Positions 44,152 to 63,155 of a stretch of DNA of 64,000 nt are shown here, piece by piece (the stretch's first letter is position 1; every line of letters starts with the position of its first letter). The position numbers and the translations under genes are program-made. The notes below the pieces were generated by a model. That model saw only the letters and a list, made by a program, of their open reading frames with translations, had not been told where the DNA came from and made no database searches. The DNA is from a virus: positions 29,700-93,699 of IMG/VR virus record IMGVR_UViG_3300042893_000474, one strand, 5' to 3'.

Positions 44152-44194
44152 GTGGGTTTTATATTAGTTTTTTAATTTTAGGTTGATTTCTTAA

Positions 44195-44226
44195 TTTGCA
44201 AAGTTATAAGAAATATCTTATTTTTG
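44195..44226 (+). promoter_or_regulatory. Promoter for the lone + strand gene
   Basis: TTTG at 44195-44198, a 20-base spacer, and TATTTTTG at 44219-44226 fit the Bacteroidetes consensus. It lies 19 bases before the ATG at 44246. Confidence 0.6.
44199..44206 (-). promoter_or_regulatory. Possible divergent promoter box for the GroES-like gene
   Basis: TAACTTTG on the - strand (complement of CAAAGTTA), about 48 bases before the GroES ATG. No clear TTG lies at the expected -33 distance, so it is tentative. It overlaps the spacer of the + strand promoter, which would make the two mutually exclusive. Confidence 0.35.
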
Positions 44227-44245
44227 AATATAGAAAATTAATTTT

Positions 44246-44566
44246 ATGACAACAGAAACAAACCAACCAGAAGCACAGGAAAGTACAGTCTATTGGAAAC
44301 CTGATGAACAGATTACTATCAAAGGAACTGAACTTGCATCATTGTTGCATTTAGTAGATTTACAGACAGTTTCTATCTCTCAAGTACCTTTGAGTACACT
44401 TATGGAAATGTTCTCTACTGCAAATGCTGCCAAAAATGATATTATGGCTAGACTTGCTGCTGAGGGTAAACTAAGCAATAGTCCTATAGAATCTGTAGAA
44501 CCTGTAGAAACTATCGAACCAGTAACTTTGCAGAGTTTAGACGAAATCTCAGATGAGATTTTGTAA
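44246..44566 (+). CDS. Lone forward-strand hypothetical protein
   Basis: 106 residues, acidic, with WKPDEQITIKGTELASLLHL, a helical middle (LSTLMEMFSTANAAKNDIMARLAAEG) and a Glu/Val/Pro C-terminus (VEPVETIEPVTLQ). It is the only + strand gene among about 40 - strand genes on this side. It has its own TTTG-N20-TATTTTTG promoter and is closed by a perfect hairpin shared with the convergent neighbour. I do not recognise a family. Its start is an ATG behind an AT-rich leader with no Shine-Dalgarno. Confidence 0.6.
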   Translation: MTTETNQPEAQESTVYWKPDEQITIKGTELASLLHLVDLQTVSISQVPLSTLMEMFSTANAAKNDIMARLAAEGKLSNSPIESVEPVETIEPVTLQSLDEISDEIL

Positions 44567-44593
44567 TTAAAAGTAACTTTAGTGGTTAATAAA

Positions 44594-44618
44594 AAAGGAG
44601 GACTATATGTCCTCCTTT
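44594..44618. terminator. Bidirectional terminator hairpin
   Basis: AAAGGAGGAC, loop TATAT, GTCCTCCTTT form a perfect 10-bp stem between two convergent genes. On the - strand it is followed by TTTATTAACC after a T-run; on the + strand only TATTGTTTC follows. The stop codon of the - strand gene lies within the hairpin. Confidence 0.8.
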
Positions 44619-45079
44619 ATTGTTTCTAGATAGTGATAAAATCTGTAGATTTCCTGAGTTATATCTATTTGAAGTTTAGTAAAGTCAGCTTCAGGGTCAG
44701 CAATATTTAAAAATGACTTGGATAATTCATCTACACGACTATGTTTAAAGCTAAACAAGTCTCTGCGATAAACGTCATGTACTTTAAATACATACATCCT
44801 CATTGTATTATCAGGAGTAACTACATCATAGAAGTCGTAGAAAGATGTAAAGTCTGCAAGTTTAAACTGGAATTCATCAAAGTCTTTGTTATCCTTTAAA
44901 TGAAACAGAAAGAACAAGCAGTCTCTATACTTTTTGCTATGCCCGTAATCATCCAAGTAAACATTAACTAACCCATAAATTCTGAGTGTAGCTAATGCAT
45001 CCTTGTTGAAAATCATACAGGTTAAAAATCTAGCAGTATTAGTAGGAGGATTCACTAATACAAAATTAACAGAACTCAT
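44603..45079 (-). CDS. Hypothetical protein (158 aa)
   Basis: 158 residues, rich in Phe, Tyr and Asp (YRDCLFFLFHLKDNKDFDEFQF ... FYDFYDVVTPDN), with a C-terminal helix. No signal peptide, membrane segment or catalytic motif is evident. It lies 11 bases after the exonuclease gene and so is probably cotranscribed with it. Its stop codon is inside the terminator hairpin. I do not recognise a family. Confidence 0.55.
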   Translation of the reverse strand: MSSVNFVLVNPPTNTARFLTCMIFNKDALATLRIYGLVNVYLDDYGHSKKYRDCLFFLFHLKDNKDFDEFQFKLADFTSFYDFYDVVTPDNTMRMYVFKVHDVYRRDLFSFKHSRVDELSKSFLNIADPEADFTKLQIDITQEIYRFYHYLETIKEDI

Positions 45080-45090
45080 AGGTTTACCAA

Positions 45091-46062
45091 CTATTGTCCA
45101 ATAATACGTACACCCTTGTTCTGATAGTCATGCATAGGATATTTCCACAAATCATTTTCTACGTGCCACTCATATCTTTCAATAGCTTGATGGAATCCTT
45201 CATACTGACGACCATTATGCTCACCTCCGTATTGACCTATCTCTAAGATGTCTTCAGACATTTCATAAATGAGAGGACTTCCAGGGTAGTCTTGATTCTC
45301 TACAATAAACCTAAAGGGATGTAGCACTTTACCTCCTAGTTGTTTTACCAACCCAGAAGCAATTACTCCATAAGTATAGAAAGCAGCTTGTATGTCATAC
45401 CTAAACTTCCAAAACATACTCATCCAATAGTGTGTTGGACTTGAGGTTGTCTTTAAGTCTATTGGGTATACAACTCCTGTTGCTTTGTCGACCACTACTA
45501 AGTCTAGTAGACCCTTACATTTATGCCCATTGTACTCAAATTCTACCACTACTTGTTTATGGACTTCGTATATTTCTGACCCATTAATCCATTCTGAGGT
45601 AAAGTCATTGTACTTAAGGCTTTCTACAATAGCGTCAATCTTTGCTTTTTGGCTAGTTGTAATTACACTTTTACCATTTGACTCTAGCAAAGCCTCATAG
45701 TAATACTTGCCTTCTTTCTCAAATCGCTCAAGTACTTTGTCTACTTTAATCTTAAAGCCTGACCTTTCATAAGCAATCTGTACTGCTTCACTACTATCTC
45801 TATTGATAAATAAGTTCCATACAAATACACCCATCATAGCTCCAGGCTTCTCTACGTCAGTTACGTAGAAAGCATCATAGAAAGCATCATGACTTTGTGT
45901 TAGAATAAGATCTACTCCGTCTCCAATAACGGTAGTTTCTTTTGGTTCGTCTGTGTCATCCTCATTGTTGTAGTTAATAAAGAGCTGCGGATGCGCTAAT
46001 AGCTTCTTTAATTTGCTCTGACTAAGAGCTGTACTACTTAAGTATTCTTCGTTTATTATCAT
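45091..46062 (-). CDS. RecB-like PD-(D/E)XK exonuclease
   Basis: About 323 residues from the ATG at 46062. The frame runs on to an upstream ATG at 46143, but that extension crosses a perfect inverted repeat and looks non-coding, so the shorter start (MIINEEYLSSTALSQSKLKKLL) is preferred. The nuclease core reads KGLLDLVVVDKATGVVYPIDLKTT, giving the Asp of GLLDL and the D-x-K of IDLKTT. DIQAAFYTYGV follows, the Q..xxY motif of RecB/AddB-type nucleases. PD-(D/E)XK exonucleases of this kind work in phage recombination and end processing and are part of the crAss-like replication gene set. Confidence 0.75.
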   Translation of the reverse strand: MIINEEYLSSTALSQSKLKKLLAHPQLFINYNNEDDTDEPKETTVIGDGVDLILTQSHDAFYDAFYVTDVEKPGAMMGVFVWNLFINRDSSEAVQIAYERSGFKIKVDKVLERFEKEGKYYYEALLESNGKSVITTSQKAKIDAIVESLKYNDFTSEWINGSEIYEVHKQVVVEFEYNGHKCKGLLDLVVVDKATGVVYPIDLKTTSSPTHYWMSMFWKFRYDIQAAFYTYGVIASGLVKQLGGKVLHPFRFIVENQDYPGSPLIYEMSEDILEIGQYGGEHNGRQYEGFHQAIERYEWHVENDLWKYPMHDYQNKGVRIIGQ

Positions 46063-46110
46063 ATCGTAGGTAAGTAATCTTAATGTTCCAGAAAAACCAT
46101 CCAATGTATA

Positions 46111-46133
46111 AAGTAAACAACTCCTGTTTACTT
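46111..46133. repeat. Perfect 9-bp inverted repeat upstream of the exonuclease gene
   Basis: AAGTAAACA (46111-46119), spacer ACTCC, TGTTTACTT (46125-46133). It lies between the terminator at 46166-46197 and the exonuclease ATG, with no T-run after it. An operator or a structured leader is more likely than a terminator. Confidence 0.6.
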
Positions 46134-46165
46134 GTTCTTGCAATAGTTAACATGGGAAGAAGATA

Positions 46166-46197
46166 GAAAAAAAGAAAGGGTGCATCTCTCTGCCCCC
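46166..46197 (-). terminator. Rho-independent terminator after the diphosphohydrolase gene
   Basis: On the - strand: GGGGGCA, loop GAGAGA, TGCACCC (6 of 7 pairs, one G-A mismatch), followed by TTTCTTTTTTTC. It lies 39 bases beyond the stop of the 123-aa gene and ends the replication operon. Confidence 0.7.
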
Positions 46198-46235
46198 ATT
46201 TACGTTTGTAGAAATTATTTGCCTCTAGTTGTAGT

Positions 46236-46607
46236 TTACCTATCATCATAATCTGGTTTCTCCCGTAAAATATACTCTAAAAACATTACGTTACACATAA
46301 CATGGCTAATATGTCGGCAGCCTGACTCAGCGTCTATATCCTCACCTTTAGCAAAGGCAAACAAATGCCTCATTAAACTCTCGGTAACTTTAGTTACTGG
46401 CATACCTTTCTTCCAGTTGTTTGGTGCATACTTAGCTGCGCCATACTCTAAAACTTTAACCATACCTTCTAGTGAGTCAAAGTCTACTAACGACCACTGC
46501 AACTTGTCTTGGTTGTATCTTAATGCTTGTTTGTCTCTATCTAGTAGAGCTCTCTCAAAATCGTCAACCTCGTTGGCAATTTCTTCTCTAATTGTTTTAT
46601 TTTCCAT
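46236..46607 (-). CDS. dATP/dGTP diphosphohydrolase-like protein (MazG-like helical)
   Basis: 123 residues. LRYNQDKLQWSLVDFDSLEG, then VLEYGAAKYAPNNWKKGM, LMRHLFAFAKGEDIDAESGCRHI and HVMCNVMFLEYIL match the phage family DUF5664, annotated as dATP/dGTP diphosphohydrolase. The R.....K...D, E.G..KY and H.......D..SG..H pattern provides the usual metal/nucleotide-binding Glu, Asp and His residues. Such enzymes would reshape the dNTP pool during phage DNA synthesis. It is the last gene of the - strand replication block before the terminator and follows the 145-aa gene by 5 bases. Confidence 0.7.
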   Translation of the reverse strand: MENKTIREEIANEVDDFERALLDRDKQALRYNQDKLQWSLVDFDSLEGMVKVLEYGAAKYAPNNWKKGMPVTKVTESLMRHLFAFAKGEDIDAESGCRHISHVMCNVMFLEYILREKPDYDDR

Positions 46608-46612
46608 ATTGG

Positions 46613-47050
46613 TTAAGGTTCTGGTATACGTGTACCTAGTACTTGATTTGCGAACTGAAGTACTTTACTAATAAATTTAGTCACATCTTCTTTAGTTGAC
46701 TTAGAAAACGACATAGGAAGTTTCACAAACTGCCCTGCCATTGCTACTTCTTCATAGAAGAATTTGTCTTTAAGGAACATTACAACTTCTTCCTTAGTTA
46801 GTTCTTCTCCTTGTAATTCTTCGAGTGAGTTTTTAATTACAGGTAATACTACTCCGTAAAAATATCTCAGCTGCTGAAGACTCTTCTTACCTTCTACCCT
46901 GACAAGATTTAACTCTACTTCTACTTCAGGTTGCCCGTTCATAATTTCAGTTAAGTATTGTTGTAGTATAGTAGGATCATCAGGTTTAAAATACCTATTG
47001 CCATCTAGTTTAATGGCTAATTTTCCTGGTATGTAAATTTTATTTATCAT
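46613..47050 (-). CDS. Hypothetical protein, possibly NinB-like
   Basis: 145 residues. The core GKKSLQQLRYFYGVVLPVIKNSL, then EELTKEEVVMFLKDKFFYEE and a basic C-terminus resemble phage proteins of the NinB/recombination-accessory style, in which a K(S/T)..Q.RY/W motif precedes helical segments. The similarity is weak and from memory. The gene overlaps the upstream 91-aa gene by 11 bases and sits among replication genes, so an accessory role in DNA metabolism is reasonable but unproven. Confidence 0.5.
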   Translation of the reverse strand: MINKIYIPGKLAIKLDGNRYFKPDDPTILQQYLTEIMNGQPEVEVELNLVRVEGKKSLQQLRYFYGVVLPVIKNSLEELQGEELTKEEVVMFLKDKFFYEEVAMAGQFVKLPMSFSKSTKEDVTKFISKVLQFANQVLGTRIPEP

Positions 47051-47315
47051 CGTCTTTCTTTTCTAGCTCTTCTAATAGTCTAAATGCTAACTCTTCCTCT
47101 GCTTCCAACTGATCTTTTAATTTATGTTTACCAAAAGCTAGGTCAATCTGTTTCATAAAATAAGAATTAGTACCCTTAGCATTACTTATTGCTTTGTACA
47201 AATCAGGATTGACATACTCCCTGATAAACTGATATTGGATATTAAGGGCCCGTGCTAACACATAGGCCCTTCTTATATCCTTTAAGATTTGTTGTTCAGA
47301 TGGTTTCTTGGTCAT
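47040..47315 (-). CDS. Small helical hypothetical protein
   Basis: 91 residues, helical and charged (ILKDIRRAYVLARALNIQYQFIREYV), ending in an acidic/Lys tail (LLEELEKKDDDK). The start overlaps the upstream gene's end by 20 bases and its end overlaps the downstream gene by 11 bases, consistent with a tightly packed operon. No family was recognised. Confidence 0.5.
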   Translation of the reverse strand: MTKKPSEQQILKDIRRAYVLARALNIQYQFIREYVNPDLYKAISNAKGTNSYFMKQIDLAFGKHKLKDQLEAEEELAFRLLEELEKKDDDK

Positions 47316-47979
47316 TACCAGTCTCTTCTACAGAGTCTTTATAGTCGTTGAAGTAAATTTTAAGTTCTTCCTTTTCTTCTTTAGTTAGTTTCCAATACTT
47401 ATTGCTAAACAGTTCAAGTACATCTTCAAACGTATTGTAGTAACCTTCTTGCACTTCATTAACTACTGAGTCCCAGTAACTCTCAGGGTTGTTCTTTTGT
47501 TCAAACTCCCGATAAGTCATGTGCTCTTCTCCTATGTTACCATCTTCGTCAATTACAAACTCTCCTGCAAAATCCATCCCTGACTCTTCGTAGTTACCTT
47601 CACAAGTTAACTTATATTTCTTACAGAGTTTAGCAAAGAAAGGTAACACAGGGCTCCAAGCGCTGTCACCTGAGATTATTATACCTGCTTGATCTCCAGT
47701 ATGACCTTCCTGTAACTCAAAGTAAGCCTCAAACCATTTAGAGCCATACTTATCATACACATCAAAATTAGTAGGAAATGAACCATCTGCACTTTGTTCA
47801 GGTTTGTTCATTAGAACTCTACTAAAGTTACCTGCCCATAGAGTAAATTCAGCACTATTATCACCACGACGGTAATTAGTCTCTGTCTCTAGGTCAATCT
47901 TTTTAACCTGTGCAAACAACTTCTTAATCTCATCTGGCTTACCTATAAAGTAACCGTAGTTGTAACAATGATTTGCCAT
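47296..47979 (-). CDS. YubB/DUF1281-like protein
   Basis: 227 residues. The start MANHCYNYGYFIGKPDEIKKL is followed by GSKWFEAYFELQ, GIIISGDSAWSPVLPFFAKLCKKYKL and YEESGMDFAGEFVIDEDG. This order (start of a Cys/Asn motif, GxKW, SAWSP...KLC.KY.L, Y.E.G.DFAG) is that of the YubB ferredoxin-like/DUF1281 family found on plasmids and in phages. Its function is not established. A one-base overlap (TAATG type) couples it to the 46-aa gene. Confidence 0.6.
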   Translation of the reverse strand: MANHCYNYGYFIGKPDEIKKLFAQVKKIDLETETNYRRGDNSAEFTLWAGNFSRVLMNKPEQSADGSFPTNFDVYDKYGSKWFEAYFELQEGHTGDQAGIIISGDSAWSPVLPFFAKLCKKYKLTCEGNYEESGMDFAGEFVIDEDGNIGEEHMTYREFEQKNNPESYWDSVVNEVQEGYYNTFEDVLELFSNKYWKLTKEEKEELKIYFNDYKDSVEETGNDQETI

Positions 47980-48119
47980 TATCTACCTGCCTCCCTTTCT
48001 TCAGCAATGAAGTTTCTTTCTTCGTCTCTCAGATGGTCAAATGCTGGGTCATCATTGTAGTCTACTTTTTGGGAAGAGTCGTCATCAAACTCGTCTTCCC
48101 AATCTTCAGGATCTCTCAT
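47979..48119 (-). CDS. Very small acidic protein (46 aa)
   Basis: The preferred start is the ATG at 48119 (MRDPEDWEDEFDDDSS), which overlaps the stop of the 185-aa gene as TAATG. A longer start at 48161 would overlap that gene by 43 bases. The product is very acidic, then Asn/Asp/Arg-rich (FDHLRDEERNFIAEEREAGR). There is no known family. Small acidic phage proteins sometimes mimic DNA or bind host enzymes, but nothing here shows that. Confidence 0.5.
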   Translation of the reverse strand: MRDPEDWEDEFDDDSSQKVDYNDDPAFDHLRDEERNFIAEEREAGR

Positions 48120-48676
48120 TATTCTGCTGCTAGTGCTATAAAGTGATAGAAACCAGGACATTCTTTGTCTGCTTTCTTATAAGTAATCTCAGAGACTAGT
48201 GTTTTACTACCTACTAACTGCTTAGAAATATGCACAGACGTAGCTTCTTTGGTTCTCTCAGTGTACTCACGAGCTTTCTTAATAGCATCAATCTGAAACT
48301 CGCTACTAGCAATAACATCTCCGTTGTATACTTTTACTTGGTAGACTGTCTTCCAGGTACGAGTTCCCTTTTGAGGTGTAGTAGCAACTTGAGTTTTAAT
48401 CTTGTTGGTATTAACTATTGGCTCACTGACACAAATACCTAGTGCAGGTCCCCACTTTTGTAACTTATTATTTTCGTAAAGATAATCTACATATTCATCC
48501 ATACTTTTACCTGATGCTCTAAACTCTTTAGTTACATCTACAATTCCGTTACTAGTGTTAATAGTTCCATTATACGGATCATTTCCGTGTTCGTAAGTGG
48601 CATCTTCTACTACATTGTTGTATGCCTCACGCATTGAGGCTCCTCTGCCTCTTACTTCAATTAAACTTGCTCCCAT
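48119..48676 (-). CDS. Conserved-style hypothetical protein (185 aa)
   Basis: 185 residues: MGASLIEVRGRGASMREAYN, DATYEHGNDPYNGTINTSNG, a helical middle and a basic beta C-terminus (WKTVYQVKVYNGDVIASSEF). The EHGxDPYNGTI segment is a feature I have seen in uncharacterised phage proteins. The leader in mRNA sense is AAAACTAACTAAAACAAAG before the ATG, one of the recurrent leader words. Its place right after the DNA polymerase gene suggests a replication-period role, but no function is supported. Confidence 0.5.
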   Translation of the reverse strand: MGASLIEVRGRGASMREAYNNVVEDATYEHGNDPYNGTINTSNGIVDVTKEFRASGKSMDEYVDYLYENNKLQKWGPALGICVSEPIVNTNKIKTQVATTPQKGTRTWKTVYQVKVYNGDVIASSEFQIDAIKKAREYTERTKEATSVHISKQLVGSKTLVSEITYKKADKECPGFYHFIALAAE

Positions 48677-48700
48677 AATTTTTCTTTGTTTTAGTTAGTT

Positions 48701-50707
48701 TTATTTTTTCCAATAAGGTGCTATGCAAGGGTCAGCTTTTAAAGGTACAGTTTTACAAAACTTAGTACCCGCTTTCTCCATAGCTATTTGTAGTGCTTTT
48801 GCACAATCTTCTGCCAATGACAGCGGACATTCAATTAAGTTCTCGTCGTGAATTGTGTTTACAAATTTCACTGTAAACAATAAGTTATTTGGAACCAGAT
48901 ACTCACTCCAGAACATCACACAAGATAACTTGGTAATTTCTGAGGATTCTCCTTGGATTGGATAGTTCAATGACATACGTTCAATCTCACCTTTTTTCAT
49001 TGAATAAGCTTGTACTACTTTCTTAAGCTCTCTAAAGGTAGGTGTATTGCTTGCCTTATGTTTCTTGTAACTCTTCCAAAAGGCATCGTTATCAATCTTA
49101 TCCTTTTGTTCCATGTACCATTCATAATTATCCACGTAGGACTTTTTACCTGTGACTTCTGAAATCAATACAAAGCCGTTCTTTAGTCCGAATTGTTTGG
49201 CTTTTTCAAAGTATGATTTTAATCCAGGAAAGGCTCTGAAGTAGGAATCATAGATATGCTGACCTTGAGTTAGACTTAACCCTAGTTGATCTGCAATACC
49301 TTTCCCACTACCGCCATAGTTGATAGCAAATCCTGCTACCTTAGCTGCTTGACGTTTATCTTTGTGCTCTTCCTTGATTGTATCAAGTGGCACATCGTCT
49401 AGCTCAGGGTACATCTTAGAGGCTACAAATGAATGCATATCTCCAAGATTCTTCCTGTAGAACAATAATAAGTTTTCGTCAAGACACTTGTTTACTAGAA
49501 CAATTTGTTCTTGACCAGTGTAATCACAACCTATTAATGTATTTCCTTCTTCTGCTACAAAACAACCTCTAGTTTCTTTATCACTAGGAATGTTTTGAAA
49601 GTTAGGATAAGATTCTCCCGTAGCTTTGTTTCTTCCACCACTAGATAAGCGTCCTGTGTTCATCAACTGCTTATAACTTGTGTGTACTCTACCACTTACA
49701 GGATTAATTAATCTCAACCAGTTCTCACCATACGTACCGATATTCTTTTGACATTCTTTGTATCGGATGTATGTTTTTAAGATAGGAAATTGTTCTATTT
49801 GTTTAGAAAGGTGTCCTGCTTCTGTTGTCTTTTTAGCTACACCTTTTTCTATTATTTCAACATCTACACCCATCATTTCAAACAATTGAATGACTTGAGT
49901 TGCGCTGTTCCAGTTGATAGAAGTATGTAATCCAGGACTGAACAAATCACCTTGTCTGTCTATGAACTTATCATAGCCGTTTTCTATTAAGTAGGAATCT
50001 AATTCTCTTCTTAATTCTTCTGCCTCATTCTTTATTTTCCTTAAGCGGTCGAGCCATTTATTCACATCTAGCTTCATACCGCAGTACTCTATATAAGAAA
50101 GCACAATTACAAAACGATTATCTAGTTCTATAGATAACTCACAGTTCTTTTCTTTAATTAACTGCTCTTGGTTACTCTTAACAACATGTAGATGCTCTAC
50201 GTCCTTACCACTGTACTTAATGAATTCAGGAGTAAATTTACCTGTAATATTAAGTCGCTGAGTTTTGTCCATATACACCCCACAATATCTATCCACACAA
50301 TCTGCTAAAGAACACTTATGCTTATCTACTCCAAGGTAGATAGTCTTCTCTGCAATGAATGTATCGAATATTTTCTTAGGTACAATTCTGTTATGTATTA
50401 AGAATCTAATGTCAAACTTTAAGTTGTGACCAATTAGTTCTTTGTTTTCCAGAATCTCTTTAAATACTTGAATGTCTACTGTATTTGTATCAATTACAAA
50501 CTGATTCTCAGCATTACCCAATTGAATACATACAATACGATCTCTGTATGGGTCAAAACCCAAAGTTTCGATGTCAAATCCAAGTACTTCTTGAGTATTT
50601 AAATACTTAAGACATGTGTCTATACTACATGCTCTAATGCCTTCATAAGAAGATTCTTGCATCTCCTTTTGAAGTTCTGTGTCTGCTGATACAAAATACA
50701 ATCCCAT
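48701..50707 (-). CDS. Family A DNA polymerase with 3'-5' exonuclease domain
   Basis: 668 residues from the ATG at 50707; the frame also opens at a TTG at 50719, but the ATG lies 2 bases after the upstream stop and is preferred. The exonuclease motif GFDIETLGFDP (D45, E47) and IGHNLKFDIRFLI are in the first 110 residues. The polymerase core has motif A LIGCDYTGQEQIVLV near residue 390, motif B RQAAKVAGFAINYGGSGKGI near 440, and motif C TIHDENLIE near 620. It should be the replicative polymerase. Motif A reads DYTGQE rather than the common DYSQIE. About 670 residues is a normal length for phage family A enzymes with proofreading. Confidence 0.9.
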   Translation of the reverse strand: MGLYFVSADTELQKEMQESSYEGIRACSIDTCLKYLNTQEVLGFDIETLGFDPYRDRIVCIQLGNAENQFVIDTNTVDIQVFKEILENKELIGHNLKFDIRFLIHNRIVPKKIFDTFIAEKTIYLGVDKHKCSLADCVDRYCGVYMDKTQRLNITGKFTPEFIKYSGKDVEHLHVVKSNQEQLIKEKNCELSIELDNRFVIVLSYIEYCGMKLDVNKWLDRLRKIKNEAEELRRELDSYLIENGYDKFIDRQGDLFSPGLHTSINWNSATQVIQLFEMMGVDVEIIEKGVAKKTTEAGHLSKQIEQFPILKTYIRYKECQKNIGTYGENWLRLINPVSGRVHTSYKQLMNTGRLSSGGRNKATGESYPNFQNIPSDKETRGCFVAEEGNTLIGCDYTGQEQIVLVNKCLDENLLLFYRKNLGDMHSFVASKMYPELDDVPLDTIKEEHKDKRQAAKVAGFAINYGGSGKGIADQLGLSLTQGQHIYDSYFRAFPGLKSYFEKAKQFGLKNGFVLISEVTGKKSYVDNYEWYMEQKDKIDNDAFWKSYKKHKASNTPTFRELKKVVQAYSMKKGEIERMSLNYPIQGESSEITKLSCVMFWSEYLVPNNLLFTVKFVNTIHDENLIECPLSLAEDCAKALQIAMEKAGTKFCKTVPLKADPCIAPYWKK

Positions 50708-50709
50708 TA

Positions 50710-51327
50710 CTAGTCCCAAACGTTAAGTGTCTTCCTCAATTCGCTTACTAAATCTTCATAAACAGTAATCAAATTCATCATCTCTTCACTAGTAAACTTT
50801 TTAACCTCTCGTGATGTACGTACCATTAATTCAGCTGTACCCTCACCATGTAGTTTATCTAAGTTTACTCCAAAAATGTATTGATTACCACTTAAGCCGA
50901 TGTTACATCCGTAGCATTGGGGCTTGCAATTTAATACATGAAATCGAGTTGAATAGAATCTTCTCGACTGAAAATGTCCACATTGTATCTCTCGCCAGTG
51001 TAAAACTTTCTCACAAGTAAAACATTTCGCACTGTGCTCATGTTTAATACCTGATAATCTGACATATACACTAAATATTCTGTCTAGTTTCTTGGTCAGT
51101 ACCCCGATAGACTCAGCTTTCTTTTTACGTGCTTTATCCTTACGCTCCTTAACTTTAACTATTTGTGATTTTTTCACACAAACGGCACATAACTTCTTCG
51201 TTTTGTTACTATATGGACGTTTTTTGCCACATTCTGTGCAAATTGTCTCAATAACAGCTTTGTCTTTATTTACAGGTTCTCCCTTAACTGGAATCTTTTT
51301 AGCCTGTGTTGGTTTTCTTGATAACAT
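50710..51327 (-). CDS. NinG/Rap-like recombination nuclease
   Basis: 205 residues. An N-terminal zinc ribbon (CTECGKKRPYSNKTKKLCAVC) and a second Cys pair (CFTCEKVLHWREIQCGHFQS) are followed by RRFYSTRFHVLNCKPQCYGCN. Together this is the NinG/Rap layout: CxxC, H...Q.GHF.SR, NC.PQC..CN. NinG proteins resolve branched recombination intermediates in lambdoid phages. The gene lies immediately upstream of the DNA polymerase, in the same operon, and downstream of the terminator at 51340-51388. Confidence 0.8.
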   Translation of the reverse strand: MLSRKPTQAKKIPVKGEPVNKDKAVIETICTECGKKRPYSNKTKKLCAVCVKKSQIVKVKERKDKARKKKAESIGVLTKKLDRIFSVYVRLSGIKHEHSAKCFTCEKVLHWREIQCGHFQSRRFYSTRFHVLNCKPQCYGCNIGLSGNQYIFGVNLDKLHGEGTAELMVRTSREVKKFTSEEMMNLITVYEDLVSELRKTLNVWD

Positions 51328-51339
51328 AATACAATATAC

Positions 51340-51388
51340 AAAGGAAAAGAATAACCCAAGCTTTCCTTAGGCTATTCTGTTTTCCTTT
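51340..51388 (-). terminator. Long terminator hairpin after the DUF932 gene
   Basis: The arms AAAGGAAAA (51340-51348) and TTTTCCTTT (51380-51388) match exactly; the inner pairs GAATA/TATTC, CC/GG and AAG/CTT extend the stem. It begins 12 bases after the stop of the DUF932 gene and separates it from the NinG gene. A T-rich segment follows on the - strand. Confidence 0.7.
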
Positions 51389-51399
51389 GTTATTAGACA

Positions 51400-52248: not shown

Positions 52249-52251
52249 GTT

Positions 52252-52491
52252 TTAGTGTTTTAAGTTTCTTAGTGTTTTTAGTAATTCTTTGAGTTCATTT
52301 ACTCTTCCTGTAATCTCGCAATAATCGTACTCTGTTTTCTGGTCAGCATCTTGCAACTCATCTATACGATGAATAACAAAATCAATGATGTAGTTGCTTA
52401 CTTCTTTAGCAACTCTATCTTCTACCATGTTTACTAGTTGATCTAGTGTTTGTTGAAAATCTTCGGATGCGGTTAATTTCTTGTCTGTCAT
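52252..52491 (-). CDS. Small helical hypothetical protein
   Basis: 79 residues, helical (FQQTLDQLVNMVEDRVAKEVSNYIIDF, then VNELKELLKTLRNLKH). There is no motif beyond a likely coiled coil. It starts 4 bases into the end of the UDG gene (overlap) and is followed 3 bases later by the DUF932 gene, so it is part of that transcript. Confidence 0.5.
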   Translation of the reverse strand: MTDKKLTASEDFQQTLDQLVNMVEDRVAKEVSNYIIDFVIHRIDELQDADQKTEYDYCEITGRVNELKELLKTLRNLKH

Positions 52492-54692: not shown

Positions 54693-54706
54693 GTTTTTTA
54701 TATAAT

Positions 54707-54740
54707 AAACTAAAGGGGTACTATAAGCACCCCTTAGTTT
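54707..54740 (-). terminator. Hairpin between SSB-like and primase genes
   Basis: AAACTAAAGGGGT (54707-54719) and ACCCCTTAGTTT (54729-54740) pair with one bulged A. On the - strand it follows the SSB-like gene and is trailed by a T/A-rich TTATTATAT. It looks like a moderate terminator or attenuator lowering primase expression relative to SSB. Confidence 0.6.
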
Positions 54741-54765
54741 ACTAACTAATGGTACTTAGATTTAA

Positions 54766-55626
54766 TTATCCAAACAAATCATCCTCAAAAGGACTTTCTG
54801 ATTTGGCAGGGGTTGCACTAGGCACATCTCCGAATGGATCATCGTCTGTTGTCCAAGAATCATTACCAGTTTCTACAGTATTTGGTTCTGCATCTGCAAT
54901 GTATTCTTTGAACTGAAGATTATCTCCATAGTGGTGTTTGTAACCATAGTTAGAATCAGTGATTTTGTTCTTTGTATAGTCGCTAATCTTAGCAGTCAAA
55001 GTTAAGAACAAACTGTTCCAAACATCTTGATACTGACCGTCTTTAACGCCCATAAGCACTCTAACACCTCCATCTTTCTTATTGAAGTAGTCAAAGAAAT
55101 CACGCAATTCTTTCACATTACCTTTGATGACATTCTTAATATCATCTAACATAAGAGCAGAATTGTTGGTATCAATGTTACCATAAGAACGTAGTAAGGT
55201 GTACAAATCTTCTTCTCCACGCAAAGCCTCACGTACGTTGTCTAACTTCAATTTATTGTAGTCAGCCAATTTGCTGTTACGCTCAGATAAATCTCCAAGA
55301 CTATCTGCCCACGTTACTTTGCTATGGTTGTCAATATACTGTGTCTTTCCAGACTGGCTAACACGAGTTTGAGCACTGATAAATAACGCAAACTTACCCA
55401 AGAATGGAGTAGTAAGGCTTTCATGATTCTTGTAGAAGAAGTCAATACGTGTACTATCTTCTGTAAAATAGTTTGGTTCTTTTACTTTCTCTACATCTAC
55501 CTCATAAAGAGCTGCAATTTGCTCACGAGTTGGATTAACTGCTACGATTTTGATTGGTGCAATACCTGTAAACAACTTCTTGTTGCTTGTACCGCTTGTT
55601 CTGGTTTCTAAATTGTCTAAATTCAT
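54766..55626 (-). CDS. Single-stranded DNA-binding protein-like (acidic tail)
   Basis: 286 residues. The body has FYKNHESLTTPFLGKFALFISAQT and a helical region around 120-190. The C-terminus is very acidic with Phe: DDDPFGD near residue 265 and SPFEDDLFG at the end, the pattern of SSB C-terminal tails that recruit partner proteins. Position between the AAA ATPase and primase genes supports an SSB role. I did not see a clean OB-fold signature, so the call is moderate. The leader is ACTAACAAAAGTAAAAAG in mRNA sense. Confidence 0.6.
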   Translation of the reverse strand: MNLDNLETRTSGTSNKKLFTGIAPIKIVAVNPTREQIAALYEVDVEKVKEPNYFTEDSTRIDFFYKNHESLTTPFLGKFALFISAQTRVSQSGKTQYIDNHSKVTWADSLGDLSERNSKLADYNKLKLDNVREALRGEEDLYTLLRSYGNIDTNNSALMLDDIKNVIKGNVKELRDFFDYFNKKDGGVRVLMGVKDGQYQDVWNSLFLTLTAKISDYTKNKITDSNYGYKHHYGDNLQFKEYIADAEPNTVETGNDSWTTDDDPFGDVPSATPAKSESPFEDDLFG

Positions 55627-55658
55627 AATTTTGCTTTTAACTTTTTACTTTTGTTAGT

Positions 55659-56330
55659 TTAAGAATAATACTCATCAATGTGCTCACACACTTGTTTTAA
55701 GTCATTAGGAATACGGGTTTCAGGAAACATTCCATCAGGTGATTTAGCTGGATACTTCTTCCATCTGTTAGTTACAAATTCATAAGTTGCGTTACCCTGA
55801 TTATCTTCTGACACATGGGTATACAAAGCAACTGTGAATAGACCTTCTAACACAATCTGATTATCCAACAACTTCCCAGCTGTTTTCATTTTGTAAGAAA
55901 CGATTGATCCATCGTCCATAATTTCCTCGGGATGGGAAAAGTAGAAAATTTTCAAGTCGTCTCTTAGTTTGCGGGCCTCCGTTAATAACGTGACCATGTC
56001 CTTAGCCATTACCGAAAATTTAGTAAAGCCTGTTTCTGTGGCTTTTCTGACCATGTTAAATCCCATGATGTAATTAGAGTCTTCTAAAATTACATTCTTG
56101 ATGTGTGGAGCTTTCTCATTAATACTTTGAAGATACTTAACAACTTGCAGGGCTTCATCTATTTCTGCATAGTTCTTGTTTTCTAAATTGTACATTTTGT
56201 TAGAGCCTTTGAATGGAAGTTCTTTACGAGCTACATTGATAATGTAAGTTTCTTTTGGATCTAGATTTTTAACTGATGTTGATTTCCCACTACCTGTGGG
56301 TCCTACGACTGCGATTAATTTGCTTGACAT
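55659..56330 (-). CDS. P-loop ATPase, AAA_24 / Sak4-like
   Basis: 223 residues. Walker A is VVGPTGSGKSTSVKN at residues 8-22; a Walker B-like ILEDSNYI follows near residue 80. IFYFSHPEEI and MFPETRIPNDL near the end fit the phage nucleotide-binding family (PF13479, AAA_24), whose members include Sak4-type RecA-like recombinases. It may load or assist strand annealing with the neighbouring SSB-like protein. The exact activity is not shown. It is 5 bases after the 116-aa gene. Confidence 0.75.
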   Translation of the reverse strand: MSSKLIAVVGPTGSGKSTSVKNLDPKETYIINVARKELPFKGSNKMYNLENKNYAEIDEALQVVKYLQSINEKAPHIKNVILEDSNYIMGFNMVRKATETGFTKFSVMAKDMVTLLTEARKLRDDLKIFYFSHPEEIMDDGSIVSYKMKTAGKLLDNQIVLEGLFTVALYTHVSEDNQGNATYEFVTNRWKKYPAKSPDGMFPETRIPNDLKQVCEHIDEYYS

Positions 56331-56335
56331 TTTTT

Positions 56336-56686
56336 TTAGTTTTTAGTTTTCTTTGGTTTATGTTCTTTTATATTTTCCAAGTCAGCGTCTTCTTTCAATG
56401 CCCAGCCATAAAACAATGTGAACTCTTTTACTAATGTCATCAGTTCGGTTGTGGTAAATGGTTCATTTGGTCGATAGGTAGATATCTCAGTTAGAGCGTC
56501 GTTATTGGTCACTAAATATTTATAAAGCCAATCTTGGAATTTCTTCTCTTCCTCAACTGACCACTCATATGCTTCATGCCATTCGTCTTGTAATATATCT
56601 ATTTTAGTTATGTCTGTACCTACTTGGTTAGCCATTTCACTAAAAATGATGTTTAAATGATGTCCTAATTTAATTTTCTTTAACAT
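56336..56686 (-). CDS. Helical hypothetical protein in the replication operon
   Basis: 116 residues, helical, Trp/Phe-rich (WHEAYEWSVEEEKKFQDWLYKYL), with a Lys-rich tail. It lies 2 bases after the helicase gene and 5 bases before the ATPase gene, in one operon. There is no recognised family. The place beside helicase and ATPase suggests an accessory replication factor, by context only. Confidence 0.5.
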   Translation of the reverse strand: MLKKIKLGHHLNIIFSEMANQVGTDITKIDILQDEWHEAYEWSVEEEKKFQDWLYKYLVTNNDALTEISTYRPNEPFTTTELMTLVKEFTLFYGWALKEDADLENIKEHKPKKTKN

Positions 56687-56688
56687 GT

Positions 56689-57807: not shown

Positions 57808-57850
57808 AACTTTTCATAGGGGTTGCTTGTTCAAGAGGGAAAAGAAAAAA

Positions 57851-58399
57851 TTAAAGTATTGTGTGGCTAGTATATCGTTTATTGTTACCATTTCTAACCT
57901 CATCACACCACTTTGCCAAATTACTTATCTGAACTCCATTATGTAGTTTGTTAATAAAGTAGTGAGCTTCTTGTACAAAAGCCATACTGTTAGTTCTTTT
58001 AAGATTGTCTAGATATAAGTCTACACCTGCTAAAATCTCTTCTTTGGTATAGTCGTATTCTGCTAGAAATAGATGCATCTTTTTAACGATTGCTTTCATG
58101 TTTCCACCTTTTCCTGCTATTCCAATATTTTTAGCACTAAACTTATTAGTAAACTCTTCTACCCAATCAAGCAATCCAACTACTACTGATGAAGTTACTT
58201 TTCTGGCTGTCTTTTTAGGCTCTTGGTCACTTAGATTAACACCTCCAATAGACGCCTCAAGCTCTAGGATTTCTAGAGCTTTTGGTGTCCAAAATGTAGT
58301 ATTTTTCTTAGTAACTAAAAGACCTTCATCAAACCATTTTTGTAGGATTCCCTGTTTCTCCAACAGGCTCCACATTGTCTCGTAAAATGTCTTTTTCAT
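57851..58399 (-). CDS. Helicase-adjacent hypothetical protein
   Basis: 182 residues, mostly helical. The second half (FSAKNIGIAGKGGNMKAIVKKMHLFLAEYDYTKEEIL) followed by LDNLKRTNSMAFVQEAHYFI resembles small phage proteins placed beside DnaB helicases. A loader role is possible but unproven. It lies just upstream of the helicase gene in transcription order, with a 43-base gap. Its first part overlaps the 102-aa gene by 71 bases in another frame. The leader is ACAACTAACTAACA before the ATG. Confidence 0.5.
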   Translation of the reverse strand: MKKTFYETMWSLLEKQGILQKWFDEGLLVTKKNTTFWTPKALEILELEASIGGVNLSDQEPKKTARKVTSSVVVGLLDWVEEFTNKFSAKNIGIAGKGGNMKAIVKKMHLFLAEYDYTKEEILAGVDLYLDNLKRTNSMAFVQEAHYFINKLHNGVQISNLAKWCDEVRNGNNKRYTSHTIL

Positions 58400-58637
58400 T
58401 GTTAGTTAGTTGTTTTAGATGAAGCTTTTTCTTTAGCGGGGTATCAAAATTAGGGATGTGTTCTGAAATTTGCAAGTCATTTTTTGCATTATTATCCCCC
58501 TCATTCCAATCTACTAAAGATTCTTCATAGGCTCTTTTTGCCAAGAGAAAATCTGGACTTGTATCCAGACTCTCTCCATAGCAATTAAACGATAAATTAT
58601 TCACAGCCTTCATTAGGTATGTTCCAAGTGCTTTCAC
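58329..58637 (-). CDS. Small hypothetical protein overlapping two genes
   Basis: 102 residues, acidic/Asn-rich, with a helical middle (LLAKRAYEESLVDWNEGDNNAK) and LKQLTNNEKDILRDNVEP near the end. It overlaps the peptidase gene by up to 41 bases at its start (a second ATG at 58613 is possible) and the 182-aa gene by 71 bases at its end. Overlaps of this length are unusual here, so part of this frame may not be translated. No family was recognised. Confidence 0.4.
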   Translation of the reverse strand: MKALGTYLMKAVNNLSFNCYGESLDTSPDFLLAKRAYEESLVDWNEGDNNAKNDLQISEHIPNFDTPLKKKLHLKQLTNNEKDILRDNVEPVGETGNPTKMV

Positions 58638-59976
58638 AACAGTCGCAAGTAACGTATAGCAATAAACTATTATCCACCTCTACAGGTCCCCAACAATTAG
58701 GGCAAAGTAAATCTGTTAAAGCTTCGTCAATATCACTCTGTACGGATGGTTCGTTGTCTACGTAAGATGGATAACCAATCGTATGAGTTAGATACTTGTC
58801 TCTGAGCTCTAACAAGTGCAAATCAGGATACATTTCATTGAAATAGTCGTCTTGGTCCTTACAATCTAGAGGAAGTTTAATGGCTCCTGCAGGTGTGTTT
58901 GCTATGTAAGAGTTTACTTTAACTTTCTCATCCTCTAAGTCATCAAACAAGTCAAAGCTTTTGTCAGCTTTTGCACCCCAGCTATACCCAGTACCATAAG
59001 TACCATAGCTTCCATAACCGCTGTAACGAGTGTTCTCATACACAGGAATTTCTGCTTTGTGTTGCCAAACTTTGTCTACGCCCATCTTCAGTAATTCATA
59101 ACCAAAGTTAATTGCATTTTCAAAGTGAGGTATAGAAATCATCTCGTTGTCACCATGCTCATTGATGTAACCACAAGATACGTTCATTGCTACACAATTT
59201 ACCGTATCGTACTTCTTTAGACCACCGATGTCTGTACAACTGCCGTTGTTTTTCTTGTACATATACTTATCCATGATAGAGCCAGCAGCTGTTACAAACT
59301 CATCACTACATACGGTAAGACCATTTGTGTAAGTAATTAAGTCATTCTTGTAAGAGTTCCTGTCTAGTTGGACAAGCATACTGCAATCTGTAAAGAAGTG
59401 TTTGTCTGCTTTGTAAGTACCTATAAGACCTACCTCCTCGTCTTTGGGGAAGAATAGTTTTATATTGTCAAATAAATCAAACATGTGTACTGCAAAGTAG
59501 ACACCGACTTTATCGTCTGCACCCATACCGCACTGTTCTGCTTCTTCTGTGTCAAAGCCAAACATCCAAGGATATGCAGTCATAATTTTAACATTATGTC
59601 TTACCTCTTGGTTGATGTCTGTATGTGCTACTACACAAGGATAGAATTCAGCATTACCTTTAGTTACGTATAAGTTTCCATAGGCATCTTTGGTAGTAGT
59701 TGCACCTAAAGTAGAGAAATGAGTTTGTAGTTTCTCAATGAACTTATCTTGAGCTGGTCCCTTAGAATAGGTTCTCATGTCAAGTAGCATTGTCAATTTC
59801 TCATAGTCAGGCTTTATTTCTAGATGCATATTAGGTATAGCCGTTAGAGACTCTACTTTAATTACATCTCTTGGTGGAGTTTTAGTTACTTGTAACTTAA
59901 CTTTATTTCTGTTTTGTCTTGTTGCGTTTTTCAAATTTTCTATTTTTCTAATTGTGTTGTTAACCCAGTTGTTCAT
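58597..59976 (-). CDS. M20/M42-like metallopeptidase with C-terminal zinc ribbon
   Basis: 459 residues. The two-metal peptidase ligands are all visible: VVAHTDIN (H118, D120), GMGADDKVGVYFAVH (D154/D155), PKDEEVGLIGT (E180/E181), LVQLDRNS (D205) and ISIPHFENAI (H284) after INEHGD. This is the ligand order of M20/M28/M42 aminopeptidases or dipeptidases. At the end, CPNCW (C425, C428) and CDCC (C444, C447) form a zinc ribbon that these peptidases usually lack. The middle has a Gly/Tyr-rich linker (YSGYGSYGTYGTGYSWG). The substrate is unknown; a role in processing host proteins or peptides is inference. The mRNA leader is TTAAACTTAATTTAAAGCC. Confidence 0.75.
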   Translation of the reverse strand: MNNWVNNTIRKIENLKNATRQNRNKVKLQVTKTPPRDVIKVESLTAIPNMHLEIKPDYEKLTMLLDMRTYSKGPAQDKFIEKLQTHFSTLGATTTKDAYGNLYVTKGNAEFYPCVVAHTDINQEVRHNVKIMTAYPWMFGFDTEEAEQCGMGADDKVGVYFAVHMFDLFDNIKLFFPKDEEVGLIGTYKADKHFFTDCSMLVQLDRNSYKNDLITYTNGLTVCSDEFVTAAGSIMDKYMYKKNNGSCTDIGGLKKYDTVNCVAMNVSCGYINEHGDNEMISIPHFENAINFGYELLKMGVDKVWQHKAEIPVYENTRYSGYGSYGTYGTGYSWGAKADKSFDLFDDLEDEKVKVNSYIANTPAGAIKLPLDCKDQDDYFNEMYPDLHLLELRDKYLTHTIGYPSYVDNEPSVQSDIDEALTDLLCPNCWGPVEVDNSLLLYVTCDCCESTWNIPNEGCE

Positions 59977-59980
59977 GGCT

Positions 59981-61555
59981 TTAAATTAAGTTTAAGTTTA
60001 AGTAAGCGTCAAGATCTGGTTTATACCATATCTCTCCTTCGTGTTCTTGAGTAACCTTTATTGGATAATAATTACCGTTGGTAGCCTGTAAACATTCTTC
60101 GGGCTTGTAATAGGAATCGTTCCACTCAATAGCCTCAAAGTTGGTATTACTCATTAGGAAATAACCTCCACTAGCGTATTCATACATGTCTTCATCATCG
60201 TGGTGAGCATAAGAACCATCCACTAACTCTACTGCATCTTCAGCTAAGATATAGTTATTGTCCCAGTCTCTAATTACTTCTGAACTTAGTACCCAATCAC
60301 TAATGCTTTCTATATAAGTAGCATTATCACGAGTTATGTAAGTGCTATGATGATCTGAGTACACACTGCAACGAGAACAAATATTTTCGTTATAGTTGTC
60401 GTCAGTACGTAAATCTACATAACAAGTGTCATCTTCATCCATCTCCCTACCACAAGCATGACACTCTGCTGAATTATCGCTACCTACTTCTTCATAGCTA
60501 CCTGCAGTATCATTTAGGAGTAGGTACTCAGACGAGCTATCCATGTTAGATACTTCGTTACTAAGAATGTTATAATCTGAAGTCAAGAACTTTAAGCTAT
60601 CCATGTAAGGGTAGTGACGATGATTTAGAAGTACTCTTTTGTTGATGTCAAGATTTGTAGTGTCTTGCTTTATTACAACTTCTTCATGGGGGAAATATCC
60701 AGGATAACAAGTTTTAATACCTTGAACTAAGAAGAAAGCTTTCATTCTATCTTGTATAAGATCTGAAGTAGCATAAATCCTGTCGTAGTAATCAGTAGTT
60801 CCAACTGTCCACACTAAAGCTCTACCTTGTACTTTACCTTCTTGGTTTAGTAATACGGCCATCTTGCAGATGTTTAGGTTCTTTGTGTAGATGTCTAGAT
60901 ACCCATTGGTTCTATCATAGCGCATACAAGAGTTACCTAAGTTACCTGAAATAGAAGCATAGTTCTTTTCGTGATACAGTTCTGCAATCCAATGACCCTT
61001 TACATAGATTACTTCACCAGAATCTCCCTGCCTAAATCCTTCGATACGGAATCGATTGTTGAATTGGTCAAAGTCTGTTTCGGTAAATAGTTCTGCAAGG
61101 TTGATAATAGAAACTTCTTCAAGGGACATCCCTTTAAACTCAAGTTCTTCTCTTACAAAACCCTCTAAGCAAGTCAGATGAGGAATTGAAGAAAGTAACT
61201 TCTTAACTACTTTACCTGCACCGCTGTGATAACGGTAGTCTTTGTCTTCCCAAATCCTATGTCCTTGTCCACTGTCGTAAGCTCTAGAAACCCTGTCATA
61301 CGTCATATAAGACAGTTTAGTAGGGTCATCTATACTTATTCCAAGATAGTTTAAGTTAGTAGGTATTTTGGGGATAGATGCTCCAAAACCATGAGTAAGC
61401 TTTAGGATAGCGGCAGCAATTCGATTGTCATTGATAGCCGTAAGTCGTATACTTAGATCCTGAGATATGTTCAGGTAATCATAAGTAATAACTGGCTGAG
61501 GAACTTCTACAGCAATTCCTTCTGTTAAATTTGGTTCATTTTCAAAATCTGGCAT
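59981..61555 (-). CDS. Conserved-style phage protein with Cys4 zinc-binding segment
   Basis: 524 residues. The core around 200-275 reads SGNLGNSCMRYDRTNGYLDIYTKN, then MAVLLNQEGKVQGRALVW and DRIYATSDLIQDRMKAFF. This is a pattern I recall from uncharacterised proteins of large phages ('NSCMR ... GRALLW ... DRIY'). Near residues 365-400, CHACGREMDEDDTCYVDL and NICSRCS supply CxxC...CxxC ligands for zinc. The C-terminal 120 residues are Asp/Tyr/Glu-rich repeats (DWVLSSEVIRDWDNNYILAEDAV). No catalytic role can be stated. The leader is AAAACTAACCTAAAACAAAAAAAG before the ATG. Confidence 0.55.
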   Translation of the reverse strand: MPDFENEPNLTEGIAVEVPQPVITYDYLNISQDLSIRLTAINDNRIAAAILKLTHGFGASIPKIPTNLNYLGISIDDPTKLSYMTYDRVSRAYDSGQGHRIWEDKDYRYHSGAGKVVKKLLSSIPHLTCLEGFVREELEFKGMSLEEVSIINLAELFTETDFDQFNNRFRIEGFRQGDSGEVIYVKGHWIAELYHEKNYASISGNLGNSCMRYDRTNGYLDIYTKNLNICKMAVLLNQEGKVQGRALVWTVGTTDYYDRIYATSDLIQDRMKAFFLVQGIKTCYPGYFPHEEVVIKQDTTNLDINKRVLLNHRHYPYMDSLKFLTSDYNILSNEVSNMDSSSEYLLLNDTAGSYEEVGSDNSAECHACGREMDEDDTCYVDLRTDDNYNENICSRCSVYSDHHSTYITRDNATYIESISDWVLSSEVIRDWDNNYILAEDAVELVDGSYAHHDDEDMYEYASGGYFLMSNTNFEAIEWNDSYYKPEECLQATNGNYYPIKVTQEHEGEIWYKPDLDAYLNLNLI

Positions 61556-61610
61556 AATAACTTTTTTTGTTTTAGGTTAGTTTTTCTTATTGTTTAGTTA
61601 TATCGAGATA

Positions 61611-61645
61611 AAAAAGAAAAAGAGGACCCTTTTGGAGCCCTCTTT
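61611..61645 (-). terminator. Rho-independent terminator
   Basis: AAAGAGG (61619-61625) pairs with CCTCTTT (61639-61645); inner pairs close a TTTT loop with one mismatch and one bulge. On the - strand a T-rich run (TTTTTCTTTTTTATC) follows. It ends the small-gene cluster upstream and separates it from the replication block. Confidence 0.75.
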
Positions 61646-61670
61646 GTAGATGGTTGAGAGTAATCTGTGT

Positions 61671-61982
61671 TTATTTACTTTGTAGGTAGGCTTCCACGCC
61701 TTTCCAAAATTCAAAAACCATTCCTAGTCTTTCTAGAGCTGCTCCATTCAATCCCTCGAGCTTTTCCTTAGGTAAACTTTCAAAAGGACTTTTAAACGGC
61801 CTAATGTGAGCTAAAGCACATGCTTTTGCAATCTCTTTACCTAGAGTAGGAGATAATTGTGTTACAGCATCTGTGATTTGTGGGTTTACTACTTCAAAAA
61901 ACATATCAAAGATTTCGTTTCCTTTTTTTTCTACTGCCTGATTCATTTGTTCAGGAGTAAATTCTGGCATTACATTTTCCAT
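61671..61982 (-). CDS. Small helical hypothetical protein
   Basis: 103 residues, helical (MNQAVEKKGNEIFDMFFEVV), then LGKEIAKACALAHIRPFKSPF and a C-terminal MVFEFWKGVEAYLQSK. There is no motif or membrane segment. It is the last gene of the small-gene cluster before the terminator at 61611-61645 and follows the 85-aa gene by 10 bases. No family was recognised. Confidence 0.5.
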   Translation of the reverse strand: MENVMPEFTPEQMNQAVEKKGNEIFDMFFEVVNPQITDAVTQLSPTLGKEIAKACALAHIRPFKSPFESLPKEKLEGLNGAALERLGMVFEFWKGVEAYLQSK

Positions 61983-61992
61983 ATTATTTTAA

Positions 61993-62250
61993 TTATTTTT
62001 TTGGTATTTCAAAACTTCCTGTGATGTATGCAAATCGTTCTGTTACTATAATTTGACCATAGCCTATGTTTTCGTTATGTAGGTTGTAATGGTCGTTTTT
62101 AATAAATTTATTTACTAACATATCTTCAATTATTGGATCTTTTAATAAACCCCAATTCTCGCCATCTTTTTGTAAGATACTAATTAACTCACTCTTACCT
62201 TTGCCTGAGGAATATTGTATTTTGTACATTTCTGAACCTGTTAACATCAT
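61993..62250 (-). CDS. Small hypothetical protein (85 aa)
   Basis: 85 residues: MMLTGSEMYKIQYSSGKGKSE, then a mixed alpha/beta remainder (GYGQIIVTERFAYITGSFEI). The ATG overlaps the previous stop (ATGA), which supports this start over the later internal Met. No family was recognised. Confidence 0.5.
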   Translation of the reverse strand: MMLTGSEMYKIQYSSGKGKSELISILQKDGENWGLLKDPIIEDMLVNKFIKNDHYNLHNENIGYGQIIVTERFAYITGSFEIPKK

Positions 62251-62450
62251 TTTTCGTGTTTTCTTTTATAGGTGTCATTTTTCAATTGCTTGCCGTCTTT
62301 TCTCCTTTGCCAAATTAAGTGCAATTGCCAACGATACCAATCCCGCAAATTTATGTTATTTAAGTTACAATAATCTACAAACTCAGCTGTTATTTTGCCT
62401 TGTAATGATTGTAATTTACGCATAGTTGGTGTGTCTACTTTATTAGTCAT
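62247..62450 (-). CDS. Small basic hypothetical protein (67 aa)
   Basis: 67 residues, Trp/Arg-rich in the middle (LRDWYRWQLHLIWQRRKDGKQ) and Lys-rich at the end. It begins in an ATG that overlaps the upstream stop and ends in ATGA with the next gene. There is no family. Confidence 0.5.
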   Translation of the reverse strand: MTNKVDTPTMRKLQSLQGKITAEFVDYCNLNNINLRDWYRWQLHLIWQRRKDGKQLKNDTYKRKHEK

Positions 62451-62644
62451 TAAATGTGATTTTTGTTACGATTCTCTTCCTTTTTTTCGTAATACTCTAA
62501 TGGGTGTATTGGACAAGCAAAGCAAATAGGCCTTTGTTGACTTAAAGGCCTATCGCATACAGGACAAGCAAATCCAAAATACCTACGTTCTTCTTTTTCG
62601 TAAGTTGTCTCACGATACTTGTTAGTAGGTTTCTTGTCAAACAT
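62450..62644 (-). CDS. Small zinc-ribbon protein (64 aa)
   Basis: 64 residues: FACPVCDRPLSQQRPICFACP gives two CxxC pairs, the core of a zinc ribbon, followed by a charged tail. TAATG overlaps couple it to both neighbours. Such small zinc ribbons often bind nucleic acid or a protein partner, but no specific function is supported. Confidence 0.55.
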   Translation of the reverse strand: MFDKKPTNKYRETTYEKEERRYFGFACPVCDRPLSQQRPICFACPIHPLEYYEKKEENRNKNHI

Positions 62645-63087
62645 TACTTCTTTCTTTTGTTCTTGTTACCACTTCTAAGTGGGGCTTGAGTAGAACTTAC
62701 AGAAATAGTTGTAGGGGCACTTAAAGTAGCAGCAGGAGTGATAGTTTCTTCGACTACCTCACTAGTAACTTCTTTAGTTGCTTTTGTTGCTTCTAATTCT
62801 GCAGTAAGAGCTGTTGCTCTGTCGTTAATTACTTTAATTCCTGCTTTTAGTGATGCAACTTCTTCTTGTAATTTGCTTTTGTCTTCTTTTAAGCCCAATA
62901 GTTTCATACGAAGTTGAGAGATTTCCTCAAAACGATTTAAACTTTCTTTACAATAAAAAGTAGCAGAAGTAGTCTTTTGTTCTAAAGAATCTTCTAGTTC
63001 TTTGACTCTTCTGATTAAAGCAATGATAGCTCCAGTTCCGATAAGGAATAAAACTGCTAGTCCGATAATGATGTTGATTTGATCCAT
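62644..63087 (-). CDS. Membrane-anchored coiled-coil protein
   Basis: 147 residues. An N-terminal transmembrane segment (IIIGLAVLFLIGTGAIIALI) is followed by a long coiled coil (residues about 27-105, VKELEDSLEQ ... LKEDKSKLQEEVASLKAG) and a Thr/Ser/Pro/Ala tail ending in Lys/Arg. It may be a membrane-tethered protein acting in the cytoplasm or periplasm. In mRNA sense its leader is AAACCTAAAAACTAAAAACACACC. No family was recognised. Confidence 0.55.
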   Translation of the reverse strand: MDQINIIIGLAVLFLIGTGAIIALIRRVKELEDSLEQKTTSATFYCKESLNRFEEISQLRMKLLGLKEDKSKLQEEVASLKAGIKVINDRATALTAELEATKATKEVTSEVVEETITPAATLSAPTTISVSSTQAPLRSGNKNKRKK

Positions 63088-63155
63088 AGGTGTGTTTTTA
63101 GTTTTTAGGTTTATAATGTTGCAAGTTAATATCTTCTGTTATATAATGCAAATAG

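Follow-up and report, generated by a model that had tools for sequence, protein, structure and literature searches.

In the Bacteroidetes, 5′-UTRs are unfolded and show a drop in G+C, and binding of ribosomal protein bS1 to them has been proposed (PMC3155529). In Flavobacterium johnsoniae, translation is promoted by adenines at positions -3, -6, -12 and -13 (PMC6847099), and in the Flavobacteriales a strong Shine-Dalgarno (SD) sequence is reportedly typical of rpsU alone and favours ribosomes lacking bS21 (PMC9976891). The primary-sigma promoter of the Bacteroidota consists of the elements TTTG and TANNTTTG (PMC6847099). For the crAss-like phages phi14:2 and crAss001, a review describes transcription by a virion RNA polymerase, which serves the early and middle genes (PMC10136315). 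Here we compare with these systems a class of AACTAA-type words found in front of genes of a crAss-like phage, for which either a promoter for the virion polymerase or a role in starting translation had been proposed.

The replication block of the phage

The window analyzed is a 64-kb stretch, bases 29700-93699, forming the right part of a 93,699-base virus record that is a crAss-like phage contig. Its replication block lies on the - strand at 38-64 kb of the window and includes genes for DNA polymerase A (48701-50719), a DUF932 protein, an AAA ATPase and a DnaB-like fragment. The best matches of the DNA polymerase include crAss-like phages (38% to cr108_1 and 35% to crAss001), and we infer that the host belongs to the phylum Bacteroidota.

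BLASTP aligned the giant 2686-aa protein encoded at 17756-25816 (+) with the virion RNA polymerase of phi14:2 (E 8e-21, 22% identity, 975 aligned positions). The protein has DYDID at the position of phi14:2 DFDID and is a candidate virion RNA polymerase. It is also a distant homologue of crAss001 gp50. Searches of solved structures with two giant proteins returned no match, and PHROGs gave none for 17756-25816 and a single weak, unnamed one for 25903-32340.

Some small features of the block were also seen. A conserved 102-aa ORF with a GTG start, 58329-58637 (-), overlaps the starts or ends of both of its neighbours and is 75-96% identical in close relatives. Another ORF of 56 aa, 63156-63326 (-), overlaps the stop codon of gene 63326-63664, and its second half resembles a helix-turn-helix by eye. 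A symmetric terminator-like hairpin is present on both strands at 44594-44618, where the genes 44246-44566 (+) and 44603-45079 (-) converge; it overlaps the end of the latter gene.

AACTAA-type words in gene leaders

The original prediction quoted seven related words of ACTAAC type in the leaders of right-side - strand genes, and all seven were found at the genes named and on that strand. They were said to lie 5-35 bases before the ATG, which is nearly right; the actual distances range from 0 (gene 58399) to about 33. The recurrence is real, but the words do not form a single motif: they are a loose class of A-rich words and short tandem units.

Three of the words stand in short gaps or ordinary leaders. 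AAAACTAACCTAAAAC (61569-61584) is in the leader of gene 59981-61555 after a terminator-like hairpin (61619-61645), AAAACTAACTAAAAC (48688-48702) is in a 24-nt gap before gene 48119-48676 directly after the stop of the DNA polymerase, and AACCTAAAAACTAAAAAC (63094-63111) is in the leader of gene 62644-63087. A fourth, AACCTAAAATTAAAAAACTAA (44164-44184), belongs to the leader of gene 43867-44151 and lies downstream of the box TAACTTTG (44199-44206), a host-type -7 promoter box that matches the published consensus TANNTTTG; all of these, like the remaining words, are on the - strand. The seven are unequal, however. AAACTAACAAAAG (55648-55660), in the leader of gene 54766-55626, begins at the stop codon of the upstream gene, and AAAACTAAAAACTAAAA (56334-56350), before gene 55659-56330, is mostly made up of the 3′ coding end of the upstream gene 56336-56686 together with its stop codon. 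AACAACTAACTAACA (58400-58414), immediately before gene 57851-58399, lies within the conserved overlapping ORF 58329-58637, where it encodes ...QLTN, and relatives retain Q-L/P-T-N at this place of the ORF.

Counted over the whole window, neither ACTAAC (44 vs 57.4 expected) nor AAACTAAC (5 vs 6.4 expected) is enriched; the signal, being limited to leaders, escapes such counts. When we counted in the 40 nt before the right-block - strand ATGs, against shuffled controls that preserve the dinucleotides of each leader, the words were modestly enriched: AACTAA occurred 11 times vs 5.2 (p 0.008) and ACTAAC 5 times vs 1.8 (p 0.024), and counted by leaders AACTAA occurred in 8 vs 4.6 (p 0.04). Since the word was picked after the data were seen, the fair test is that of the relatives, 43 loci related at the DNA polymerase locus, whose genes were called by a simple ORF caller, so that single starts may be wrong and short genes missed. 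Their 240 de-duplicated leaders held 43 copies of AACTAA compared with 19.7 in shuffles (sd 4.2). Being above shuffles both in the window and in the relatives, the signal is real but modest, and because AACTAA exceeds what the dinucleotides predict, the exact word is not accounted for by A-richness on its own. Within leaders it is strand-specific (77 copies vs 4 of its reverse complement TTAGTT) and peaks 7-30 nt before the ATG, on the replication and structural strands alike. We also considered that the word is merely the upstream stop codon and rejected this, the enrichment persisting past the stop.

Outside the family, the strongest excess was found in the leaders of the Cellulophaga siphovirus phi10:1 (21 vs 6.3). 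In a Prevotella replicon the excess was weak (5 vs 2.7), and phages FCL-2, 11b and phi12:3 showed no clear excess of AACTAA.

The words had been described as a feature of right-side genes. They are indeed present there, but they are not confined to the right block. For large parts of seven family genomes and phi14:2, we assigned genes on the DNA polymerase strand to a replication class and those on the opposite strand to a structural class, a proxy for early/middle vs late timing. AACTAA was present in 55 of 300 leaders on the replication strand and in 45 of 303 on the structural strand (p 0.27), and in 20 of 75 gaps of 5-45 nt on either strand. Gap length then served as a proxy for the head of a transcription unit vs the interior of an operon. 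On the replication strand, 15 of 44 operon-internal gaps (15-45 nt) held the word, compared with 5 of 44 head-like gaps (45-100 nt); among gaps >100 nt, in which true heads are mixed with missed genes, it was in 16 of 68 on the replication strand and 8 of 57 on the structural strand.

Translation leaders or a recognised element

The best explanation, to which we give a probability of roughly 0.8, is that the words belong to the translation initiation regions of the phage mRNAs. This second half of the original prediction is supported by their position relative to the ATG, their strandedness, the low folding of the leaders and the Bacteroidota literature, from all of which the function is inferred. 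In family leaders, positions -1 to -30 have A at 0.42-0.44 and G at 0.12-0.13, compared with 0.35 and 0.17-0.19 at -31 to -60, and A peaks before the ATG at -3 to -6 and -11 to -13. The mean MFE is -0.5 kcal/mol for the named leaders, -2.4 for all right-block starts and -8.7 for gene interiors. Leaders with AACTAA are less folded than those without it in both strand classes, which partly follows from their composition.

Orthologous leaders exchange their units freely, among them AACTAAC-TAAAAC, AAAACTAAAACTAAAACTAA, repeated CATTAAAA and repeated TAAAA, and the leader of gene 48676 shows such turnover among orthologues; the A-rich, G-poor composition is kept while the repeat unit changes. We suggest that the ribosomes of the probable Bacteroidota host, which would not rely on SD pairing, use an A-rich, G-poor, unfolded stretch directly before the start codon in which adenines at about -3, -6 and -12/-13 are preferred. 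This stretch would probably be bound by ribosomal protein bS1 and would raise translation, and the phage may fill its intergenic gaps with short, readily duplicated units of A, C and T, of which (A)nCTAA is the commonest. The word class is genuine and fits the loose, A-rich, unfolded stretch by which ribosomes of Bacteroidota-type hosts find starts.

Three results count against a leader that is A-rich in general and nothing more: the excess of the exact word, a skew in copy number toward the replication strand, and the lack of excess in FCL-2, 11b and phi12:3. One way to account for the first is that, beyond general A-richness, a translation factor or a phage protein binds AACTAA as a specific RNA element. 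The excess over the dinucleotide expectation speaks for it, as does TTAAAACTAAAGAA, which occurs exactly three times in phi14:2 near gene starts. However, the spacing to the ATG is not fixed, the flanks are not conserved, units are exchanged between orthologues, and the word is weak or absent in several Bacteroidota phages, so that we regard such an element as improbable. Each of the three phi14:2 copies (L062:1967-1980, 3558-3571 and 3573-3586) just precedes an annotated gene in the left, RNA-gene-like region of this genome, and near-matches of TTAAAACTAAAGAA in this locus number 18 vs 5.6 expected.

The skew bears on a narrower proposal, that tandem words of AACTAA type are recognised specifically in the genes or transcripts of the replication block, atop the general A-rich leader, by the virion polymerase or a translation factor. 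In the non-coding part of leaders, copies of AACTAA number 45 vs 15.8 on the replication strand and 20 vs 15.9 on the structural strand, and in phi14:2 AACTAAA is likewise skewed, with 10 copies vs 2.5 on the former strand and 2 vs 2.0 on the latter. If true, this proposal would explain the skew both in this family and in phi14:2; we consider it equally improbable. Tandem repeats account for part of the skew, and tandem runs of 8 or more are above shuffles in both classes (10 vs 4.3 for the replication strand and 8 vs 2.7 for the structural strand).

SD-like words are rare, being found before 25 of 639 family genes, and the exceptions are grouped toward the block's upstream end. There, gene 63326-63664 (-) is preceded by GGAGGTAACAA, with the SD-like site at 63662-63675. 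Close relatives have two to three consecutive small genes with AAGGAGGTGAGCA or GGAGGTAACAA before the ATG, inside ATGA overlaps (L055:3864; L056:3327 and 3890; L057:2378 and 2611; L059:126 and 530; L075:321, 844 and 1134), and these sites are preceded by conserved tails, for example ...YNETYGGNK and ...YGGGEQ. In replication-strand leaders, AGGAGG was counted 8 times vs 0.9 expected. Such strong sites are unexpected in a phage of SD-free hosts. They are possibly aimed at ribosomes lacking bS21; no bS21 gene was found in the phage's own record or in 12 relatives. These starts may merit more attention than the AACTAA words.

Promoter signals and comparison with described systems

The other half of the original prediction was a promoter for the virion RNA polymerase. 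On this view the packaged polymerase would start transcription of early genes at the word, which would form its promoter or contribute to it. Several observations agree with it. The region had been said to mostly lack TAnnTTTG boxes, and this holds: the sole - strand box found in a non-coding leader at 44.1-64 kb is that at 44199-44206. Early and middle genes are reportedly transcribed by the virion polymerase in crAss-like phages (PMC10136315), a candidate for this polymerase is encoded at 17756-25816, the excess in copy number is larger on the replication strand, and in front of gene 61555 the word lies between a terminator-like hairpin and the gene with no host box.

The promoter is nevertheless unsupported and, in our judgement, slightly less probable still than a recognised RNA element. 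The share of leaders with the word is the same on the structural strand, which argues against specificity for the replication block, and the word is more frequent inside operons than in head-like gaps, which argues against concentration at the heads of transcription units. AACTAA occurs at 9.8/kb downstream of TAnnTTTG boxes vs 1.5/kb upstream of them and is therefore probably in the transcribed leader. Orthologues share no fixed core, and of the three - strand genes that follow terminator-like hairpins, 61555 alone has the word. It is also strongest in phi10:1, which we take to have no virion polymerase because this phage is not crAss-like and the annotation of the 30 kb listed includes no such polymerase; absence of the word from such phages would be expected of a promoter. 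As for the words having no function at all, with composition bias, short tandem repeats made by slippage and stop codons in small gaps as their source, tandem runs above shuffles on both strands and the upstream stop codon included in some words agree with this, but the A peaks at ATG-tied positions, the weakly folded starts, the composition kept constant despite changing units and the enrichment remaining once the upstream stop is removed make it the least probable explanation of all.

Three terminator-like hairpins on the - strand, 61619-61645, 54713-54735 and 51348-51378, shortly precede genes 61555, 54692 and 51327, and no host box separates them from the gene starts. These gaps are candidate sites of virion polymerase promoters or of readthrough, and if virion polymerase promoters are in this block, they are the place to look. 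Sigma-70-type promoters were also searched for and rejected, 58 being found vs 66.6 in shuffles. Some TAHHTTTG boxes end only 3-9 nt before the ATG, at 37842-37849 (-) and in orthologues of gene 50710-51327 in four relatives (L021, L025, L033 and L041). Since the published start is 4-5 nt after the box, the mRNAs would be leaderless or nearly so.

Because the words behave as translation leaders and not as a polymerase switch, the finding is largely ordinary. The papers available to us do not state how start sites are chosen by the virion polymerase of crAss-like phages, so closing a false promoter lead is worthwhile. The case also calls for caution: in hosts without SD pairing, A-rich leader words mimic motifs, and leaders of the other gene class as well as unrelated phages are needed as controls.

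Like phi14:2 and crAss001 (PMC10136315), this phage has in its block replication genes of the kind described as early/middle, and its genome encodes a polymerase distantly homologous to that of phi14:2. The word does not behave like a promoter of that polymerase, for which no start-site motif was found in the papers available to us. Boxes like that of the Bacteroidota primary-sigma promoter (PMC6847099) are present upstream of some family genes, including 44151 here, whereas the word has no sequence in common with that promoter and sits downstream, in the predicted transcript. The closest likeness is to the SD-free starts of the Bacteroidota (PMC3155529, PMC6847099), with which the phage leaders share an A-rich, G-poor and unfolded stretch of 30 nt before the ATG, adenines at about -3, -6 and -11 to -13, and few SD sequences. 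They differ from those starts in the AACTAA and short tandem units, which we saw in this phage family and in phi10:1 and which are not described in the literature examined.
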